A stretch of DNA of 64,000 nucleotides from Candidatus Sulfopaludibacter sp. SbA3 (GTDB lineage Bacteria > Acidobacteriota > Vicinamibacteria > Vicinamibacterales > UBA2999), in assembly GCA_945903265.1 (NCBI GenBank), contig CAMDNQ010000008.1, positions 1 to 64,000 on the forward strand, written 5' to 3'. Numbering within the stretch: position 1 is the stretch's first letter; each line of letters starts with the position of its first letter. The position numbers were made by a program, and so were the translations under genes. Positions 4,685 to 53,991 of this stretch are shown in pieces. The notes under the pieces are model-generated. The model was not told where the DNA came from. It ran no database searches and worked only from the letters and a program-made list of their open reading frames with translations.

Positions 4685-5974
<1,290 letters not shown>

Positions 5975-46582: not shown

Positions 46583-46939
46583 TTAGTGCGTATCCGCGAG
46601 TAACGATGCCAGCGCGGCCGCGCCTTCCTGGAGTTCGAAGTCGTAGATCAACGCATCCTCGAACGACTCAAAAAAGCGGGTGGCGAGCTCCTGATGGGCG
46701 GGATGGTCGAGGTAGGCGCGTAAGCCCTCTGCGTCGTCGAATTCAATGACCGCCGCGTACGGATAGTCCGCGCGCATCATCGCTTCGTACGGGCGGCCCG
46801 TCATGACGCGCCGTCCGACGCGAGCCTGACGGATTGCGGGGATGGCGCGCAGCGCCGCCTCGAACGACGAGGCGAGCGCCGCGCGCTGATCGGACGACAG
46901 GTCGGCCCGCGGCCTGAACAGCACCAGGTGAACGGTCAC
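46583..46939 (-). CDS. Dabb (stress-responsive A/B barrel) domain protein
   Basis: A 118-residue protein with the dimeric alpha/beta-barrel fold suggested by the N-terminal strand MTVHLVLFRPRADL, the middle YPYAAVIEFDDAEGLRAYLDHPAHQEL (about 59-85) and a C-terminal strand ALIYDFEL. Dabb proteins range from stress proteins to polyketide cyclases, and function cannot be assigned from sequence. The ATG overlaps the stop of the upstream disordered-protein gene by 4 bp, so they are translationally coupled. Confidence 0.85.
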   Translation of the reverse strand: MTVHLVLFRPRADLSSDQRAALASSFEAALRAIPAIRQARVGRRVMTGRPYEAMMRADYPYAAVIEFDDAEGLRAYLDHPAHQELATRFFESFEDALIYDFELQEGAAALASLLADTH

Positions 46940-48099
46940 GAGCGGCGGCGCGGGGGTTTGCTGGGAGGCCGTCCGGGACGTCCTCCGGATCCGCGTGGCG
47001 GGCCAAACCCTTTCTTCTCGAACTTCTTGTCGAACTTCTTCTCGAACCGCGGCCGCACTTCGCGACGCAGCGGATCGCCATGCGGCTTTTCACGCGGCGG
47101 CCGATCGTCGCGCGGCGGGCGCGAGTCGCTGCCGAAGCGCGGATTCTTACCGGGCGGTCGACGGTCGCGATCGAAGCGCTGGTCCTTGCCCGGCGGTCGG
47201 CGGTCGCGATCGAATGGCGGTTTTTCCCGGGGCGGACGTGTGTCTTTACCGAAGCGCTGATTTTCACGCGGTGGCCGCTGGTCGCGGCCAAAGCGCTCGT
47301 CCTTGCCCGGCGGCCTGCGGTCACGGTCGAATCGCGGCTTCCCCGGAAGGGGACGTTCGTCCTTCCCGAACTTCTGATTTTCACGCGGTGGCCGCTGGTC
47401 GCGGCCAAAGCGCTCGTCCTTGCCCGGCGGCCTGCGGTCGCGGTCGAACCGCGGCTTCCCCGGAAGGGGACGCTCGTCCTTCCCGAACTTCTGGCTTTCT
47501 CGCGAGGGGCGACTGTCGCGCGGCGGCCGCTGGTCACGCCCGAACCGCTCCTGCTCCCGAGGAGGATGACTGTCGCGCCACGGCGGCCGGTTGCCCTGAC
47601 GCGGCGGCCGGGAGTCCTGCCGTGGCGGTCGGGAGTCTTGACGCGGTGGACGCGTGTCCGGGCGCGGCGGGCGGCTGTCGTGCCGTGGCGGTGGCGGCCG
47701 GTTGTCCTGGCCGGGCGGACGCCGATCGTCCCGCTCACGCCGCTCGCCCGGCCCCTGGCCATCCTGGCGTCGCGCGAACTTCTCTTTTCGCCAGCGCACA
47801 TTCCGCGCCTTCTTGGCGTCCTTGAACGGCTGCCGCGGATCCTCGTGGCTTCCGCCTGGCCGCCAGTCGCGCCCTCGCGGCGGCTGACTCGTGCGGCCCT
47901 CGCGGCGCTCTGCGGCTTCCCGCTTGGCTTCGTCCTGCGACTCCCAGAGCCTGCCGCGCGCGAAGTACTTCAGCTCGGCATCCGGATGCTTCTCAAGGAT
48001 GCGCTTGAACGTCGGCAGTATCTCGTCCCGCTCGGCCGCGCGAAACGCGGTCGGCAGGCCGCCGGCAATGATGGTCCAGTAGACGTAGCGCGGTGGCAT
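46936..48099 (-). CDS. Arg/Pro/Asp-rich disordered repeat protein with a short conserved N-terminal domain
   Basis: A 387-residue protein. Residues 1-65 look folded ([20 protein letters not shown], then ILPTFKRILEKHPDAELKYFARGRLWES). From about residue 66 to the end it is low-complexity and strongly charged, built from RPPR, FGRDxRPP, GKDERF and RFDRDRRPPGK units. A 39-residue block is duplicated almost exactly (117 bp at 47257-47373 and 47374-47490). It ends with RFEKKFDKKFEKKGF and an Arg-rich tail. Net basic Arg/Pro repeats with acidic residues suggest RNA binding or phase separation; this is inference. The start overlaps the stop of the NtrC-type regulator by 1 bp (TAATG). Function unknown. 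Confidence 0.8.
   Translation of the reverse strand: MPPRYVYWTIIAGGLPTAFRAAERDEILPTFKRILEKHPDAELKYFARGRLWESQDEAKREAAERREGRTSQPPRGRDWRPGGSHEDPRQPFKDAKKARNVRWRKEKFARRQDGQGPGERRERDDRRPPGQDNRPPPPRHDSRPPRPDTRPPRQDSRPPRQDSRPPRQGNRPPWRDSHPPREQERFGRDQRPPRDSRPSRESQKFGKDERPLPGKPRFDRDRRPPGKDERFGRDQRPPRENQKFGKDERPLPGKPRFDRDRRPPGKDERFGRDQRPPRENQRFGKDTRPPREKPPFDRDRRPPGKDQRFDRDRRPPGKNPRFGSDSRPPRDDRPPREKPHGDPLRREVRPRFEKKFDKKFEKKGFGPPRGSGGRPGRPPSKPPRRRS
47257..47490. repeat. 117-bp tandem duplication in the disordered-protein gene
   Basis: Two adjacent 117-bp units, 47257-47373 and 47374-47490, nearly identical at the DNA level and in frame (39 codons). Shorter, more diverged units flank them. Confidence 0.85.
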
Positions 48100-49475
48100 T
48101 AACGATCAACTCCGATTCGTTTGAGCTTCTCGACCAGGGTCGTTCGCTTGATTCGAAGCAAATCAGCGGCCTTGTTGCGGTTTCCCTGCGTGCGATCCAG
48201 CGCACGCTGGATGAGATCCCGCTCGATTGAGGAGAGATAGTGCGGCAAGTCGAGTCCGCTCTCGGGAAAATCGACGAACGGCGTCGACGCGGTCTGGGGG
48301 GCCTCACGCACTTCCGGCGGCAGATCGGCGGCATCGATCTCCAGCCGCCCCGCGCTCAGCGCAATCGCGCGCTCGATCGCGTTTTCCAGCTGTCGGACGT
48401 TGCCGGGCCAGCTGAAGGCCATGAGAGCGCGCATGCCGCTCTGCGAGAGGTGGATCTCCGATCCGGGCGCGAATTTGTCGATGAAGTGCTTCGCGAGGAG
48501 CGGGATATCGTCGCGGCGGTCGCGCAGCGGCGGCAGCTGAATCGGAATGACGTTCAGCCGGTAGAACAGGTCCTCGCGGAACGTCCCCTCGGCGACCATG
48601 CGCGCCAGGTCAGAATTGGTGGCGGCGATGACGCGCACGTCCACTTTCGTCGTTTTGCTTTCCCCGACGCGTTCGAACTCGCGTTCCTGCAGCGCGCGCA
48701 GCAGCTTGACCTGCAGCGCCGTGCTCATGGTTCCGATTTCGTCCAGGAACAGCGTCCCTTTGTGCGCCTGCTCGAACCGTCCCTGCCGCGTGTTCACCGC
48801 ACCGGTGAAGGCGCCGCGCACGTGACCGAAGAGTTCAGTCTCCAGCAGCGTTTCGGGAATCGCGCTGCAGTTGATCGCCACGAATCGTTGTGCCCGTCGC
48901 GGGCTGTTATGGTGAATCGCTCGCGCGACGACCTCCTTGCCGGTGCCGGTTTCTCCGCTGACGAGAATCGTGCTGCTCGCCGCGGCGACGCTTTCGACGA
49001 GCTGCATGAGATTACTCATGACCCGGCTCTTTCCGATGATGCCGTCTAACGCATGGCGTTCCTCAAGCTGAGATCGCAGATAGGCGTTCTCGGACGTCAG
49101 CCGGCGCTGCTCCAGCGCCTTCTGCAGCACGTGCATCAGCTCGTCGAACTGAAACGGCTTCGCGATGAAATCCGACGCGCCGCCTTTCATCGCCTCGACC
49201 GCGTCGCGCACAGTGCCGTAGCCCGTGATCACAATACCGATGATGCCGGGATAGCGGCTGGTCGCCGCTTCAATGACCCGCCCACCACCGATGCCCGGCA
49301 TGCGCAGATCGGTGATGACGATGTCGAACGCAAACTGCTCGAGGAGATCCAGCGCCTTCTCCCCAGATTCAGCTTCAGCCACCTCGAACCCGCGATCGCG
49401 AAGCCGCTCTGCCATCAACGTACGCAGCGGTGCCTCGTCGTCTACGAAGAGCAGGTGAGGGGTGGGACCGGTCAT
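48099..49475 (-). CDS. NtrC-family sigma-54-dependent response regulator
   Basis: A 458-residue regulator starting at ATG 49475 ([21 protein letters not shown]); an open frame upstream to 49559 crosses a palindrome and is not conserved. The receiver domain (about 6-120) keeps the acidic pocket FVDDE and the phospho-acceptor in [11 protein letters not shown] with TGYGT and KPF downstream. The AAA+ domain (about 143-380) has [22 protein letters not shown] (the sigma-54 contact loop, in [11 protein letters not shown]) and LDEIGTM. A Fis-type HTH ([29 protein letters not shown]) ends the protein. A 16-bp palindrome (49486-49501) lies 11 bp before the start. No cognate kinase is directly adjacent; the hybrid kinase at 51198-52745 and the DHp-only protein are candidates. 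Confidence 0.94.
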
Positions 49476-49485
49476 TAATAAGGGG

Positions 49486-49501
49486 TGCCAATATATTGAC
49501 A
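49486..49501. promoter_or_regulatory. Candidate operator, copy 1 (GCCARTWWATTGRC)
   Basis: TGCCAATATATTGACA is a near-palindrome (one mismatched pair) in the divergent promoter region between the NtrC-type gene and the BldC-like gene. The same motif occurs at 50131-50146 and 50164-50179. Confidence 0.5.
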
Positions 49502-49594: not shown

Positions 49595-49813
49595 ATGGAA
49601 CGTCAAACACTCTCGATCATGAAGGCGTGCGAGGCGGTCGGCGTGAGCCGCCGCACCATCTACAACTGGATTTCCGCAGGGAAGGTCGAGTACGTGCGGA
49701 CCGCCGGGGGATCCATTCGCATCTTCGCTGACACGTTGTGGCGCGATGCGGCGCAGCCGCGGGCGATGTCGACCGTTGGGGCGTCAGTCTCGACGACCGG
49801 ACGTCACGCGTGA
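49595..49813 (+). CDS. BldC/excisionase-like small HTH DNA-binding protein
   Basis: A 72-residue protein with a MerR-like winged HTH of the HTH_17 type: LSIMKACEAVGVSRRTIYNWISAGKVEYVRTAGGSIRIFADTL (about 6-48), including the YNWISAGK recognition helix and the wing that ends in SIRIF. This is the fold of BldC, excisionases and transposon-linked regulators. No integrase is nearby, so a transcriptional role is more likely than excision. The tail after residue 50 is low-complexity. Its stop overlaps the GTG of the following gene by 4 bp, so the two proteins should be made together. Confidence 0.85.
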   Translation: MERQTLSIMKACEAVGVSRRTIYNWISAGKVEYVRTAGGSIRIFADTLWRDAAQPRAMSTVGASVSTTGRHA

Positions 49814-50052
49814 ACCTCGCGGCGGACCTTCAGGACCTCAGGGACGAGCCCGCGGGGGATACCGATCTGCGCCTGCTGTTTCACCAGCTGAATAACCAGC
49901 TGGGAATCGTCCTGGCGCACGCGGAATTGCTCGAGGCTAAAGCGCCCGATGAGACGACGCGCGCGCGCCTCACGCAGGTGGTGACCAGCACGCTCGAGGC
50001 GATGAATACCGCCCGCAAAATCCGCCGCCAGGCGGATTCGTCGGCACTCTAG
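49810..50052 (+). CDS. Orphan histidine-kinase dimerisation (DHp/HisKA-like) domain protein
   Basis: An 80-residue protein with GTG start at 49810 (GTGA overlap with the HTH gene). The core LLFHQLNNQLGIVLAHAELLEAKAP resembles the H-box of kinases with an H-x-L-N-N pattern (compare AHELNNPLATIL in the hybrid kinase at 51198-52745). A second helix (RARLTQVVTSTLEAMNTARKIRRQ) completes a helical hairpin. There is no ATP-binding HATPase domain, so it cannot autophosphorylate by itself; it could be a phosphotransfer relay or a competitor that pairs with kinases. The function is inference; the domain call is from motif similarity. Confidence 0.72.
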   Translation: MNLAADLQDLRDEPAGDTDLRLLFHQLNNQLGIVLAHAELLEAKAPDETTRARLTQVVTSTLEAMNTARKIRRQADSSAL

Positions 50053-50130: not shown

Positions 50131-50146
50131 CGCCAGTAAATTGGCG
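50131..50146. promoter_or_regulatory. Candidate operator, copy 2
   Basis: CGCCAGTAAATTGGCG, arms CGCCA/TGGCG with a 6-bp spacer, extended by a further C/G pair on each side. About 210 bp upstream of the sigma factor start. Confidence 0.5.
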
Positions 50147-50163: not shown

Positions 50164-50179
50164 CGCCAGTTTATTGACG
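50164..50179. promoter_or_regulatory. Candidate operator, copy 3
   Basis: CGCCAGTTTATTGACG, same motif with one arm mismatch, 33 bp from copy 2 centre to centre. Confidence 0.5.
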
Positions 50180-50352
50180 ATTTGGCCACGCGGGCGGGCT
50201 TCTCCTGTCGCGGATCGAGCGCGGGCAAATGTCCATAACGTGCAGAAACAAGAACAACTTACGGTTTGAGGAGGAGCGGTCACGGAATTGACAGCAGACT
50301 AGCCTCAGCCGCTGGTACCTCCGTTGCCATACACCCCGCCCGGAGATCATAC

Positions 50353-51372
50353 ATGCGTCCCCCTAACGGCAAGGCCGACAAACGCGTTGTCGCGACAATT
50401 CCCTTCGTTGAACAGCTGGCACGGCGCGTCGCCGCCACAATGCCCCAGTCAATCGATATTGGCGATCTGGTGCAGGACGGCGTGATCGGGCTCATAGACG
50501 CTGCCCACCGCTTCGATGAAGGCCGCGGCATCAAGTTCGAGACTTTCGCCGAACGGCGCATCCGCGGCGCGATGATCGACGCCCTGCGCAAGGACGCGTG
50601 GCCGCGCGGCGTTCGCCGCCAGCGCCGGGAGCTCGAGGCTGCCCGCGAAACGCTGCGCCGCGAGCTCGGCTGCGAGCCGTCGCTGGCGGATCTGGCCGCC
50701 AAGGTCGGCTCCGACGAAAAGCGCCTGGGACGCACGATCGTCCGCATCAACACGATCGAATCGACGTCGCCTCTCGCTACCGGCGATCACAGCCACGATT
50801 CCTCATTACCGGAATCACTCGTGCCAGCCGAACCGGAGCGCCCGGACCACCTGTACGAGCGGGAAGAAACAAAGGAACGCGTGCGCGCGGCCATCGCGTC
50901 GCTGCCGCCGCGTGAACAGAAGGTCATCGGCCTCTACTACTACGGCGAGGCGACGATGAAGCAGATCGGCGCGGAGATTGGCGTGAACGAGTCGCGTGTC
51001 TCGCAGCTTCACGCGCGAGCGATCCGCAGGCTGAAAGACGTTCTTGGCGCCGCCGTGCCGCCGGCGCAGGCGGCGATGGTCATGCGCAACGCGATTCTCG
51101 CCTTCCAGCAGAAGCCGAAGATGGCGAAAGCGTCGATCGAAAGCCGCGGATGGACTGCGAGCGGCGGCAGCGGACAGCCGACGGCGGTGGTGGTGCCTTA
51201 CGCGAGCGTCTCGCGGACGGCGCGCAGCAAGTCGCCCAGCCGGAATGGCTTGGCGAGCCAGCGGCAGCCGCTGTCTTCGAGAAATCGCTCCGCGTCGGTA
51301 CCGGCGACGTCGCCGGTCACAAAGATGATGCGGCGCGCCAGCGCCGGCGTCGCGGCGGCAATGGCGCGATAA
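50353..51372 (+). CDS. FliA/WhiG-family alternative sigma factor with an extended C-terminus
   Basis: A sigma-28-group factor. The protein has 339 residues from ATG 50353. Region 2 is clear (DIGDLVQDGVIGLIDAAHRFDEGRGIKFETFAERRIRGAMIDALRK, about 35-80), as is region 3 (GCEPSLADLAAKVG) and region 4 with the -35-binding HTH (LPPREQKVIGLYYYGEATMKQIGAEIGVNESRVSQLHARAIRRLK, about 180-225). Family members normally end here. About 105 more residues follow, low-complexity, and the last 58 or so are antisense to the convergent hybrid kinase gene. No flagellar gene is in the window, so the role is open: motility elsewhere or development as for WhiG. Confidence 0.9.
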   Translation: MRPPNGKADKRVVATIPFVEQLARRVAATMPQSIDIGDLVQDGVIGLIDAAHRFDEGRGIKFETFAERRIRGAMIDALRKDAWPRGVRRQRRELEAARETLRRELGCEPSLADLAAKVGSDEKRLGRTIVRINTIESTSPLATGDHSHDSSLPESLVPAEPERPDHLYEREETKERVRAAIASLPPREQKVIGLYYYGEATMKQIGAEIGVNESRVSQLHARAIRRLKDVLGAAVPPAQAAMVMRNAILAFQQKPKMAKASIESRGWTASGGSGQPTAVVVPYASVSRTARSKSPSRNGLASQRQPLSSRNRSASVPATSPVTKMMRRASAGVAAAMAR

Positions 51373-52745
51373 AGCGTCATGCCGTCGACCCGCGGCATTT
51401 TCAGATCGCAGATGATCGCGTCGTACGTCTTCTGGCGGACGTACGACAGCGCTTCTTCCCCGTCCCCGGCGTAATCCACCAGCAGCCCCGCGTCGCGCAG
51501 GGCGTCGCTGACGGCGGCGGCGAGCGCCCGTTCGTCCTCGACGAGCAGCACCGAGGCGCCGCGCACAGCTTCCATCGACGGTGCCGGCGGCCGCAGCGGC
51601 TTCGCGGGCGCGCCCGTCCCGCTTACCGGCAACTCCACCACGAACGACGCGCCGCGTCCCGGCTGTGACTCGACGCGGATGTGACCGCCGTGCTCCTGGG
51701 CAATCGCGTAGGCCACCGTCAGCCCGAGCCCGGTTCCCTTACCGACCTCCTTGGTCGTGAAAAACGGGTCGAAGATCTTGGTCCGCATCTCGACCGGCAC
51801 GCCGGGTCCGTCGTCCCCGACCTCGAGCGCGACAGCCTCGTCCTCCACGTTGTGCCACGTCCGAATGACGAGCGACCCGCGTCCATTCGCCGACAGCATG
51901 GCCTGTTCCGCGTTGATCACGAGGTTCAGCAGGACCTGCTGAATCTGGTGGGCGTCTGCAAATACATGCGGCAGCCCTGACGCAAGCCCGGTGACGATGC
52001 TGATGTTCGAGAGCTTATGCTCATAGGCCCGCAGCGACAGCGTCTCCGACACGACCTCGTTCAGATCGATCATGGCGCGCGTCGATTGACGCTTGCGTGC
52101 GAAGGTCAGCAGGTTCCGGACGATGCGCGCGGCCCGGTCTGCTTCTCCCAGAATGACGTCGATGCCGCGTCGCGTCGCGTCATCGAGCGCCTTCTCCGAT
52201 AGACGCTCGGCCCAGCTCAGGATCGTGGCGAGCGGGTTGTTCAGCTCGTGGGCGACGCCCGAGATGGTCTGTCCGAGCGCCGCCATTTTTTCGGCCTGCA
52301 GCAGCTGCTGGTAAAGATCCCGCGACTGATCGTCGAGACGCTTGCGCTCGCTGACGTCACGGATCAGTGCTTCCGCGCGGAGGAGCGACGGACCATGCGC
52401 CTCGGATCTGGCGGTAACCTCGACCCACACGGCCGTGCCGTCCACACGCCGCATCCGCAGGAGATAGTCGGTGGCGGCCCCCTCGGTCCGCAGTCGGTCG
52501 AGGAAAGCGGTCCGCGCCGCCGGATCGGCGAACCGGTCGGGCGAAAACGGATCGACGCGGTCCTCGGCGGTGTCCGGCGGATAGCCGAAGATGGATTTCA
52601 GGTAGGGATTGGCGGCAAGCGTCGTCCCGGCGGCGCCCTCCGGGTCGAGCGTCCCGATGAATGCCCCCTCACGAACCGCGTCGAACAGGTGGGCGAATGC
52701 CGTGGCACGCTGGCGTGCCGGCGGTGAATTCGCTCTGGCGCTCAC
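51198..52745 (-). CDS. Hybrid sensor histidine kinase (PAS-HisKA-HATPase-receiver)
   Basis: A 515-residue soluble kinase without TM segments. A PAS domain with PAC-like end occupies about 20-140 (GTAVWVEVTARSE ... ALIRDVSERKRLDDQ). The HisKA H-box is GVAHELNNPLATILSW around residue 165. The ATPase domain has the N-box QVLLNLVINAEQAM, G1 GDDGPGVP, F-box DPFFTTKEVGKGTGLGL and G2. The C-terminal receiver (about 393-513) starts SVLLVEDE, with DAIICDLKMPRVDG and KPF. It overlaps the sigma factor gene by 175 bp at its 3' end and is divergent from the GGDEF gene with 40 bp between starts. Input signal cytosolic, unknown. Confidence 0.94.
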   Translation of the reverse strand: MSARANSPPARQRATAFAHLFDAVREGAFIGTLDPEGAAGTTLAANPYLKSIFGYPPDTAEDRVDPFSPDRFADPAARTAFLDRLRTEGAATDYLLRMRRVDGTAVWVEVTARSEAHGPSLLRAEALIRDVSERKRLDDQSRDLYQQLLQAEKMAALGQTISGVAHELNNPLATILSWAERLSEKALDDATRRGIDVILGEADRAARIVRNLLTFARKRQSTRAMIDLNEVVSETLSLRAYEHKLSNISIVTGLASGLPHVFADAHQIQQVLLNLVINAEQAMLSANGRGSLVIRTWHNVEDEAVALEVGDDGPGVPVEMRTKIFDPFFTTKEVGKGTGLGLTVAYAIAQEHGGHIRVESQPGRGASFVVELPVSGTGAPAKPLRPPAPSMEAVRGASVLLVEDERALAAAVSDALRDAGLLVDYAGDGEEALSYVRQKTYDAIICDLKMPRVDGMTLYRAIAAATPALARRIIFVTGDVAGTDAERFLEDSGCRWLAKPFRLGDLLRAVRETLA

Positions 52746-52785
52746 GGGCAGCGATTATAGGTCCGGACGGAGAAATCGTCGTACC

Positions 52786-53991
52786 ATGCGCCGCAGCGCC
52801 ATGCGCGTGATCAGCCGCAACGACCTGTTTCTGCTGTTCGGTCTCACGATCGCGCTTTTTGCGATGGTGTCGCAGCCGCTCGGCGACATCCTCGACTATG
52901 CGCGCGCCATCGATGAGGACTCCGGTCTCGAGCTGGTGCCGGGACTCGTCATCCTGGCCGTCGTCTTCATGTTCCACCAGTTCCGGAAGCGGCATGAGAG
53001 CCGTGCGCTCGCGCTGACGTCCGCCGCCGAAGTGCGCCAGGCGACCGCACGGGCGGCGGAGATGGAGCGCCTCGTGAACTTCGGCCGCGGGCTCGGAGAA
53101 TCGCTCGACCACGCCTCAATCGGCACCGTGGCTGCCGAGCATCTGCCCACGCTGGCCGAAGGGCGCGGCGCGTGGGCCTTCGTCCTGAGCGGGACGGCGT
53201 GGCGGCCGCTGGCGGTCGTTGCCGATCGCTCGGTGGCCGAATGCGAGATTGCGGCGCGCCACGCGCTAGGGGACGCGGTCGCGGGTGCAGCCGTCCCGAG
53301 CGACGTCTGCTTTCCCATGGTCGTAGGCGGGCAGCCGGTCGGCGTGATTGGCGTCGCGTCCCACCCCCCCGTGACGGAGCATGAACGGATCGTGCTGTCT
53401 GCGGCCGCGGCGCTGCTGGGCGGGGCGCTCAAGAACGCCGAGCTGTTTGAAGTCGTGCACGAAAACAGCGTGCGGGACGCCCTGACGGGCTGCTTCAATC
53501 GTCAGCACGCGCTCGAAGTGATTGACGCCGAGCTCCGCCGTGCGCGCCGCTCGAAGCTGCCGCTCGCGCTGATCATGTTCGACCTCGACCATTTCAAGGA
53601 GGTGAACGACCGGTATGGTCACCTCTGCGGCGACGAGGTGCTGTCGGCCGTCGGGCAGCGGATGAAAACGGTGTTGCGCGGAAGCGATCTGAAGTGCCGA
53701 TGGGGTGGCGAGGAGTTTCTCGTACTGTTACCCGACACTGACCCGCCCGGAGCCGAGCGCGTCGCGGAAATCCTTCGCCACGATCTGGAAGAACATCCGG
53801 TCAAATGGCACGTCGCGGACATTCACGTCGCCGACATCAGTGTCACGGCGAGCTTCGGGCTGACCTTGATTGTGCCGGGAGAGACGGACGCGACGGCGAT
53901 CATTACACGCGCCGATGCCGCGTTGTACCGTGCAAAGGAAGCAGGACGCAACCGGGTCTGCGTGGCAGACGGCCGGCAAATCACTGGGTAG
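52786..53991 (+). CDS. Membrane-anchored GAF-GGDEF diguanylate cyclase
   Basis: A 401-residue protein starting at ATG 52786 (a second ATG is at 52801). Two TM segments lie near residues 13-35 and 52-66, a short helix follows, then a GAF-like sensor region (about 95-225: LVNFGRGLGESLDHASIGTVAAEHL ... VIGVASHPP). The GGDEF domain (about 235-395) has DALTGCFNRQHALEVI, MFDLDHFKEVNDRYGH and the active-site loop RWGGEEF, with DAALYRAKEAGRN at the end. The intact GGEEF motif predicts c-di-GMP synthesis. I do not see an RxxD inhibitory site five residues before the loop (the sequence there is RGSDLKCRW, where RGSD is a possible I-site). Confidence 0.92.
   Translation: MRRSAMRVISRNDLFLLFGLTIALFAMVSQPLGDILDYARAIDEDSGLELVPGLVILAVVFMFHQFRKRHESRALALTSAAEVRQATARAAEMERLVNFGRGLGESLDHASIGTVAAEHLPTLAEGRGAWAFVLSGTAWRPLAVVADRSVAECEIAARHALGDAVAGAAVPSDVCFPMVVGGQPVGVIGVASHPPVTEHERIVLSAAAALLGGALKNAELFEVVHENSVRDALTGCFNRQHALEVIDAELRRARRSKLPLALIMFDLDHFKEVNDRYGHLCGDEVLSAVGQRMKTVLRGSDLKCRWGGEEFLVLLPDTDPPGAERVAEILRHDLEEHPVKWHVADIHVADISVTASFGLTLIVPGETDATAIITRADAALYRAKEAGRNRVCVADGRQITG

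Follow-up and report, generated by a model that had tools for sequence, protein, structure and literature searches.

A stand-alone HisKA-type DHp hairpin encoded within a conserved NtrC-type regulator and sigma factor gene block of Vicinamibacterales

In the acidobacterium Candidatus Sulfopaludibacter sp. SbA3, the small gene at 49810-50052 encodes a stand-alone HisKA-type DHp hairpin of 80 residues that is homologous to the DHp domain of the hybrid histidine kinase encoded next to the same sigma factor gene. All positions refer to the window, which is the whole stretch of 64,000 nucleotides that was analysed. Its probable role is to tune the adjacent NtrC-type regulator, by which an alternative sigma factor is likely switched on. 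Judged by its residue pattern and its genomic surroundings, it could serve as an accessory phosphatase or phosphoryl drain on this regulator, a reading that is given a probability of roughly 0.45. The genes occur as a conserved block in the order NtrC-type regulator (-), HTH protein (+), hairpin (+), FliA/WhiG-type sigma factor (+) and hybrid kinase (-), and the following features were assigned in the window:

48099-49475, minus strand: NtrC-type sigma-54-dependent response regulator, REC-AAA+-Fis HTH (Pfam Response_reg, Sigma54_activat, HTH_8)
49487-49500, no strand: operator-like palindrome between the regulator and HTH genes, GCCAATATATTGAC
49595-49813, plus strand: BldC-like/excisionase-type HTH protein, 72 amino acids, start ATG (HTH_17, TIGR01764)
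49810-50052, plus strand: stand-alone HisKA-type DHp hairpin, 80 amino acids, start GTG (family profile, hhalign, AF2)
50132-50145, no strand: putative operator 1, 5' of the sigma gene, palindrome GYCA-N6-TGRC, GCCAGTAAATTGGC
50165-50178, no strand: putative operator 2, 5' of the sigma gene, palindrome GYCA-N6-TGRC, GCCAGTTTATTGAC
50279-50292, no strand: further palindrome between operators and promoter, GTCACGGAATTGAC, shared with few close relatives only (L027, L032)
50314-50328, plus strand: sigma-54 -24/-12 promoter of the sigma gene, TGGTACCTCCGTTGC, found by scan
50353-51372, plus strand: FliA/WhiG-family sigma factor (TIGR02479, 197.5 bits, above the cut-off of 189.6)
51198-52745, minus strand: hybrid histidine kinase, PAS-HisKA(HELNNPL)-HATPase-REC, from which the hairpin probably derives (Pfam HisKA, HATPase_c, Response_reg)

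The hairpin protein, its origin and its small neighbour

A preliminary description of this DNA had claimed two genes of 72 and 80 residues overlapping by GTGA, the first coding for a DNA-binding HTH protein and the second apparently for an H-box hairpin of the histidine kinase type with no catalytic domain. Both open reading frames are present and share four bases. The second contains the motif FHQLNNQL, and no HATPase_c catalytic domain was detected in its 80 residues with Pfam. Its proposed similarity to HisKA could not be recovered from the single sequence and emerged at the level of the family. Since the window's hairpin alone matched no Pfam or NCBIfam model in single-sequence scans, a profile of its family was needed. 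PF00512 (HisKA) was weakly matched by 11 of 41 family members with a best E-value of 0.0017, and hhalign aligned the hairpin family with the DHp domains of the neighbouring kinases at an E-value of 4.4e-9 and a probability of 96%, compared to 0.2% for the HTH family that was used as control. HPt families were absent from the Pfam matches of the 41 members at E-values up to 1. A sequence search of the PDB with the hairpin profile gave weak matches, one of them a histidine kinase (E 0.71).

AF2 predicted the monomer as a two-helix hairpin with helices at residues 15-43 and 48-79 and a mean pLDDT of 85, rising to 94-98 over residues 21-70. Its structural matches included the DHp domains of GacS (7n0e_A; rmsd 1.5 and TM 0.83 by target, with an E-value that is not significant, as hairpins match much) and of ShkA (6qrj). 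Helical hairpins match many unrelated proteins, and the structure search is consistent with a DHp domain and not diagnostic of it; RsiG and FlgM were not among the structural matches listed, which excludes nothing. According to the alignment, the homologous hairpins all end shortly past helix 2 and have no degenerate ATPase-like C-terminal domain.

The DHp domain in the genome that fitted the hairpin profile best was the one of the adjacent hybrid kinase with 21.7 bits, followed by 11.7 bits for the next one, when 30 HisKA loci fetched out of 36 found were compared. The hairpin and the DHp of the adjacent kinase are 52% identical over 48 residues in one genome. In a tree built from 59 columns, an alignment so short that the exact branching is uncertain, the free hairpins formed one clade (100/100) that grouped with the adjacent kinases (99/100) and stood apart from the other kinases of the genome, save for one long-branched row. 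As the free hairpins form a single clade beside these kinases, they probably arose once, by duplication of the DHp domain of the neighbouring hybrid kinase.

Of 59 relatives searched in six frames, 46 carry the hairpin, almost invariably in one copy. The unique loci that were compared number 97. Nearly all carriers belong to the Vicinamibacterales, a group of Acidobacteriota from soil and water; the few exceptions are records whose bin labels are evidently wrong. Strong matches in a phylum-wide sample were confined to this order, and those outside it were for the most part kinases with long open frames, the rest being distant hairpins. For the 30 most similar pairs among 41 homologues, codon positions 1, 2 and 3 of the structured core differed at 0.146, 0.094 and 0.416, respectively. 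Because the differences concentrate at third codon positions, the hairpin protein is under purifying selection. A chance open reading frame was excluded for both small genes, given the occurrence of the hairpin at 97 loci and the bias of its differences.

Some further short DHp-like frames were seen in the phylum. Two distant free hairpins with the motif HKLRN-LGMISAFGELL (L157, 5557-5805, minus strand; L158, about 5260-5547, plus strand) were noted in another family of the Acidobacteriota, within flagellar gene clusters, one ahead of fliL and one between flgE and fliL. Neither matched an NCBIfam model, and they might represent another lineage of free DHp proteins. A different Acidobacteriota genome carries a short DHp-like frame with an acidic H+1 residue (LAHELSNALEIIVQTSYLLE; L159, 1580-2014, minus strand) in an unrelated context.

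The HTH identity of the first small gene held up, with an E-value of 2.7e-8 on Pfam HTH_17 (34.4 bits, cut-off 27) and a score of 38.1 bits on the NCBIfam excise model TIGR01764, above its curated cut-off of 28.8. The score on the BldC family NF033787 was far under the cut-off (24.3 against 77 bits). The core of the protein is near-invariant among 34 homologues. It has the HTH_17/MerR-like DNA-binding domain in common with small HTH proteins of the BldC/excisionase type, but differs from them in being paired with a hairpin gene and in falling under the BldC cut-off. An NTGA overlap of the HTH and hairpin genes was found in 39 of 89 loci. A toxin-antitoxin reading of the two overlapping genes was dropped in view of their conserved synteny, their spread across the order and a copy number that is nearly always one. 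The BldC-like protein might act as a co-transcribed DNA-binding accessory.

Conserved gene block and sigma-54 promoter

Adjacent orthologs of the regulator were found at 93 of the 97 hairpin loci, which makes it the strictest companion of the hairpin, followed by the sigma factor (92), the HTH protein (88) and the kinase (83); many of the misses are contig ends. The regulator had been thought to have no adjacent kinase, which is corrected by the finding that the hybrid kinase at 51198-52745 belongs to the same conserved block. The output of this five-gene switch, the sigma gene with its sigma-54 promoter, had not been part of the preliminary description. The HTH and hairpin genes had been regarded as a pair. 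They are indeed conserved together, but do not behave as a functional unit: the hairpin occurs without a detected adjoining HTH gene at 8 loci (L058, L060, L066, L114, L121, L122, L124 and L128), and four genomes have the HTH gene and no intact hairpin (G010, G021, G023 and G053). Thereof, G010, G023 and G053 possess the HTH, sigma and kinase genes as well as the operators and lack the hairpin; the regulator is present in G010 and G053, and the contig of G023 ends at the HTH gene. G021 contains a decayed hairpin remnant (LNDELGVAFAHAERF). Despite the loss of the hairpin, the kinase His and the REC Asp are intact in G010, G021 and G023. In G053 (L195, about 8017), the kinase alignment stops before the REC domain, which this kinase appears to have lost, and the hairpin is lost as well.

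The complete-scoring genome G050 has kept the HTH, hairpin and sigma genes, and a kinase ortholog was not found genome-wide; its regulator ortholog (66% identity) lies approx. 58 kb away. The hairpin was also kept without a kinase nearby at L113. Since neither the HTH gene nor the kinase is needed for the hairpin to persist, and since it can vanish while the rest stays, the core consists of the regulator, operators, promoter and sigma gene. The hairpin is an accessory to it, dependent neither on the kinase ortholog nor on the HTH gene.

Two other frames adjoin the block. A GGDEF protein is encoded at 52609-53991 (plus strand) next to the kinase gene and was found by similarity at 29 of the 97 loci in relatives; a c-di-GMP link to the WhiG-like sigma factor is possible. 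On the other side, a 387-residue open reading frame adjoining the regulator gene (46936-48099, minus strand) has an N-terminus of ordinary appearance and, after it, long Arg/Pro/Asp-rich repeats (DRRPPGKDERFGRDQRPPREN).

The sigma gene likely starts at 50353 and not at 50266, since the sigma-54 promoter sits between both starts. The palindrome GYCA-N6-TGRC occurs in at least one copy in 90 of 93 loci, with a second copy 31-33 bp off in 60. The promoter was present in 85 of the 93 loci, together with an operator in 83, and its distance to operator 1 is typically 176-182 bp. Scanning for the promoter gave hits in 35 of 41 regions upstream of the sigma gene, plus the window, compared to 0.5 of 41 in shuffled sets, which also contained about one operator site. 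The palindrome between the regulator and HTH genes was found in 15 of 36 homologous intergenic regions (0.36 in shuffles). Within the 3.5 Mb genome the operator pair is unique, and rpoN is present. An NtrC-type activator, upstream sites, a -24/-12 promoter and rpoN, which together define a sigma-54-dependent enhancer system, were thus all found. Paired upstream sites and a -24/-12 promoter are the architecture of a sigma-54 promoter driven by an NtrC-type enhancer. Given this enhancer-type arrangement, the adjacent regulator is the likely activator of the sigma gene.

A genome scan with the FliA-type promoter consensus TAAA-N14-16-GCCGATA yielded one match, fewer than the backwards control, and for this reason no regulon was assigned to the sigma factor. 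Between the operators and the promoter (about 50232-50262) lies a 30-bp element, CCATAACGTGCAG / CCATAACGTGCAGAAA..AAGAA..ACTTAC, that was considered as a candidate binding site of the HTH protein. When loci without the HTH gene were checked for its absence, it proved to be shared by only a few sequences closely related to the window. The sigma and hybrid kinase genes converge and overlap by 175 bp (51198-51372). The sigma factor's C-terminal tail is hereby encoded antisense to the REC domain of the kinase, so that conservation of this tail may reflect the kinase.

Residue pattern and possible role of the hairpin

The phospho-acceptor position of the window's hairpin is His25, with Gln26 at H+1 and Asn29 at H+4. 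Retention of this His in homologues, on which the kinship to histidine kinases had been made to depend, is complete (97 of 97 unique loci), and the same applies to the H+4 Asn. An acid at H+1 occurs at none of the 97 loci, where R (76), Q (14), S (3), T (3) and K (1) are found instead. Among the adjacent kinases, each of the 86 readable sequences has H, E(+1), N(+4), P(+5) and the REC Asp. In EnvZ, regulator specificity is set at positions +7, +11 and +12 relative to the His. The residues found there are G, A/S and H/N in the free hairpin and A, S/T and mostly W in the kinase DHp. Since they differ, the two may contact different receivers, which weighs against the drain reading.

Mutational work on four HisKA kinases, CrdS among them, ties the H+1 acid to kinase activity alone and the H+4 Asn/Thr to phosphatase activity alone; CrdS retained phosphatase activity as E372A and E372Q, and most of it as H371A (PMC3510030). 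By these residue roles, the hairpin with its lost H+1 acid and invariant H+4 Asn resembles a DHp that is naturally kinase-minus and phosphatase-competent. The isolated DHp of EnvZ was reported as a phosphatase (Zhu 2000, as cited in PMC8971529), but had no phosphatase activity in mammalian cells (PMC8971529).

In the proposed mechanism, the hairpin would dimerise to a four-helix bundle and dock as a dimer on the receiver of the NtrC-type regulator. It would then dephosphorylate the regulator or take the phosphoryl group off, setting the threshold of the latter. The phosphorylated regulator would bind the paired operators and turn on the FliA/WhiG-type sigma gene together with sigma-54 RNA polymerase. 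Without the H+1 acid, the hairpin would be unsuited to act as an autokinase, and with its invariant His and H+4 Asn it would be equipped to work on phosphorylated receivers.

For phosphatase activity alone the His would be dispensable, as seen for CrdS H371A, and its invariance in the hairpin therefore favours phosphotransfer. The strongest rival explanation builds on this and proposes a minimal histidine phosphotransferase that passes the phosphate from the kinase via the kinase's own REC domain to His25 and from there to the NtrC-type regulator. It would resemble ChpT, which relays between CckA and CtrA (PMC3433190), and PhyT, which relays between SdrG and PhyR and also sequesters the sigma-pathway regulator to which it transfers phosphate (PMC5898713). 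An invariant His with a varying non-acidic H+1 is what phosphorylation by transfer would lead to expect, the neighbouring hybrid kinase has its REC Asp in 86 of 86 sequences and CckA as its second-best named NCBIfam match, and the loss of the hairpin in G053 coincides with that of the REC domain. However, the hairpin-less genomes G010, G021 and G023 keep the kinase His and REC Asp, the operators, the promoter and, where the contig allows, the regulator, so that a relay step is dispensable, and G050 keeps the hairpin without the kinase. On balance, this rival is considered rather unlikely. The preliminary description had proposed a relay or a decoy for the hybrid kinase; a link to kinase and regulator is likely, whereby a relay is possible and not required, and a pure decoy is disfavoured.

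As a decoy, the hairpin would form hetero-bundles with the neighbouring kinase and poison its dimerisation or autophosphorylation. This would suit its derivation from, and identity to, the DHp of that very kinase, and a DHp-DHp contact between kinases is known from RetS-GacS, with the DHp of GacS among the structural matches. It is improbable nonetheless, because G050 keeps the hairpin without a kinase ortholog; L113 keeps it without a kinase nearby, and conservation of a dimer core alone would not fix His and Asn at all loci. Comparably small is the probability that the hairpin binds the adjacent sigma factor (or the HTH protein) with a merely structural His, in analogy to the RsiG hairpins that bind WhiG. 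The sigma gene adjoins the hairpin in 92 of 97 loci, the predicted fold is a helical hairpin and the distant hairpins of similar kind lie in flagellar operons of other Acidobacteriota, but the descent from a DHp domain and the retained phospho-chemistry residues His and H+4 Asn argue against an anti-sigma factor, and the hairpin matched no anti-sigma family profile in Pfam or NCBIfam. That it is a decaying gene fragment without function, as its loss or decay in four genomes might suggest, is hardly credible in view of residues that are invariant over 97 loci and of the third-position bias, by which this explanation is refuted for the clade.

Known systems and implications

Receiver phosphatases, DHp-type phosphotransferases and sigma-54-driven genes of FliA-type sigma factors are already known kinds. 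With the DHp domains (PF00512) of the bifunctional HisKA kinases EnvZ, CrdS and NtrB, the hairpin has the H-box, the His, the H+4 Asn and the two-helix hairpin in common, but it is encoded alone and lacks the sensor, the ATPase, the H+1 acid and the H+5 Pro. ChpT, Spo0B and PhyT are DHp-like non-autokinases that act on receivers in relays, and the regulator of PhyT controls a sigma factor. In those proteins the DHp-like part is joined by a membrane part or by a C-terminal domain of degenerate ATPase-like type, whereas only the hairpin with its non-acidic H+1 is found here. Activator, paired enhancer sites, -24/-12 promoter and sigma product are similar to the NtrC-sigma-54 cascade acting on the FliA/sigma-28 gene in flagellar hierarchies. 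The present block additionally has genes for a free DHp hairpin and a BldC-like HTH protein, which lie between those of the activator and the sigma factor, and no flagellar genes were seen in the conserved block. A literature search for stand-alone DHp proteins, covering mainly openly accessible papers, returned ChpT, PhyT and fragments of EnvZ; a natural DHp that is free and has this residue pattern was not found described there.

Single-sequence Pfam and NCBIfam searches miss such proteins, and the number of free DHp hairpins may therefore be underestimated. Laboratory mutants of HisKA kinases split kinase (H+1) from phosphatase (H+4) activity; evolution apparently did likewise once and kept the result order-wide. 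With somewhat less confidence than the drain reading itself, the hairpin can tentatively be seen as a DHp of single origin that was fixed throughout an order as a kinase-minus, phosphatase-plus module on an NtrC-sigma-54-FliA/WhiG-type cascade, which would place it among the smallest phospho-signalling proteins. A free DHp of 80 residues beside its parent kinase makes a phosphatase or phosphotransferase function of the DHp alone directly testable in the cell, and the published data on EnvZ DHp fragments conflict on whether the DHp alone suffices. The Vicinamibacterales, which are genetically little studied, gain a predicted sigma cascade with defined putative operators and a promoter.
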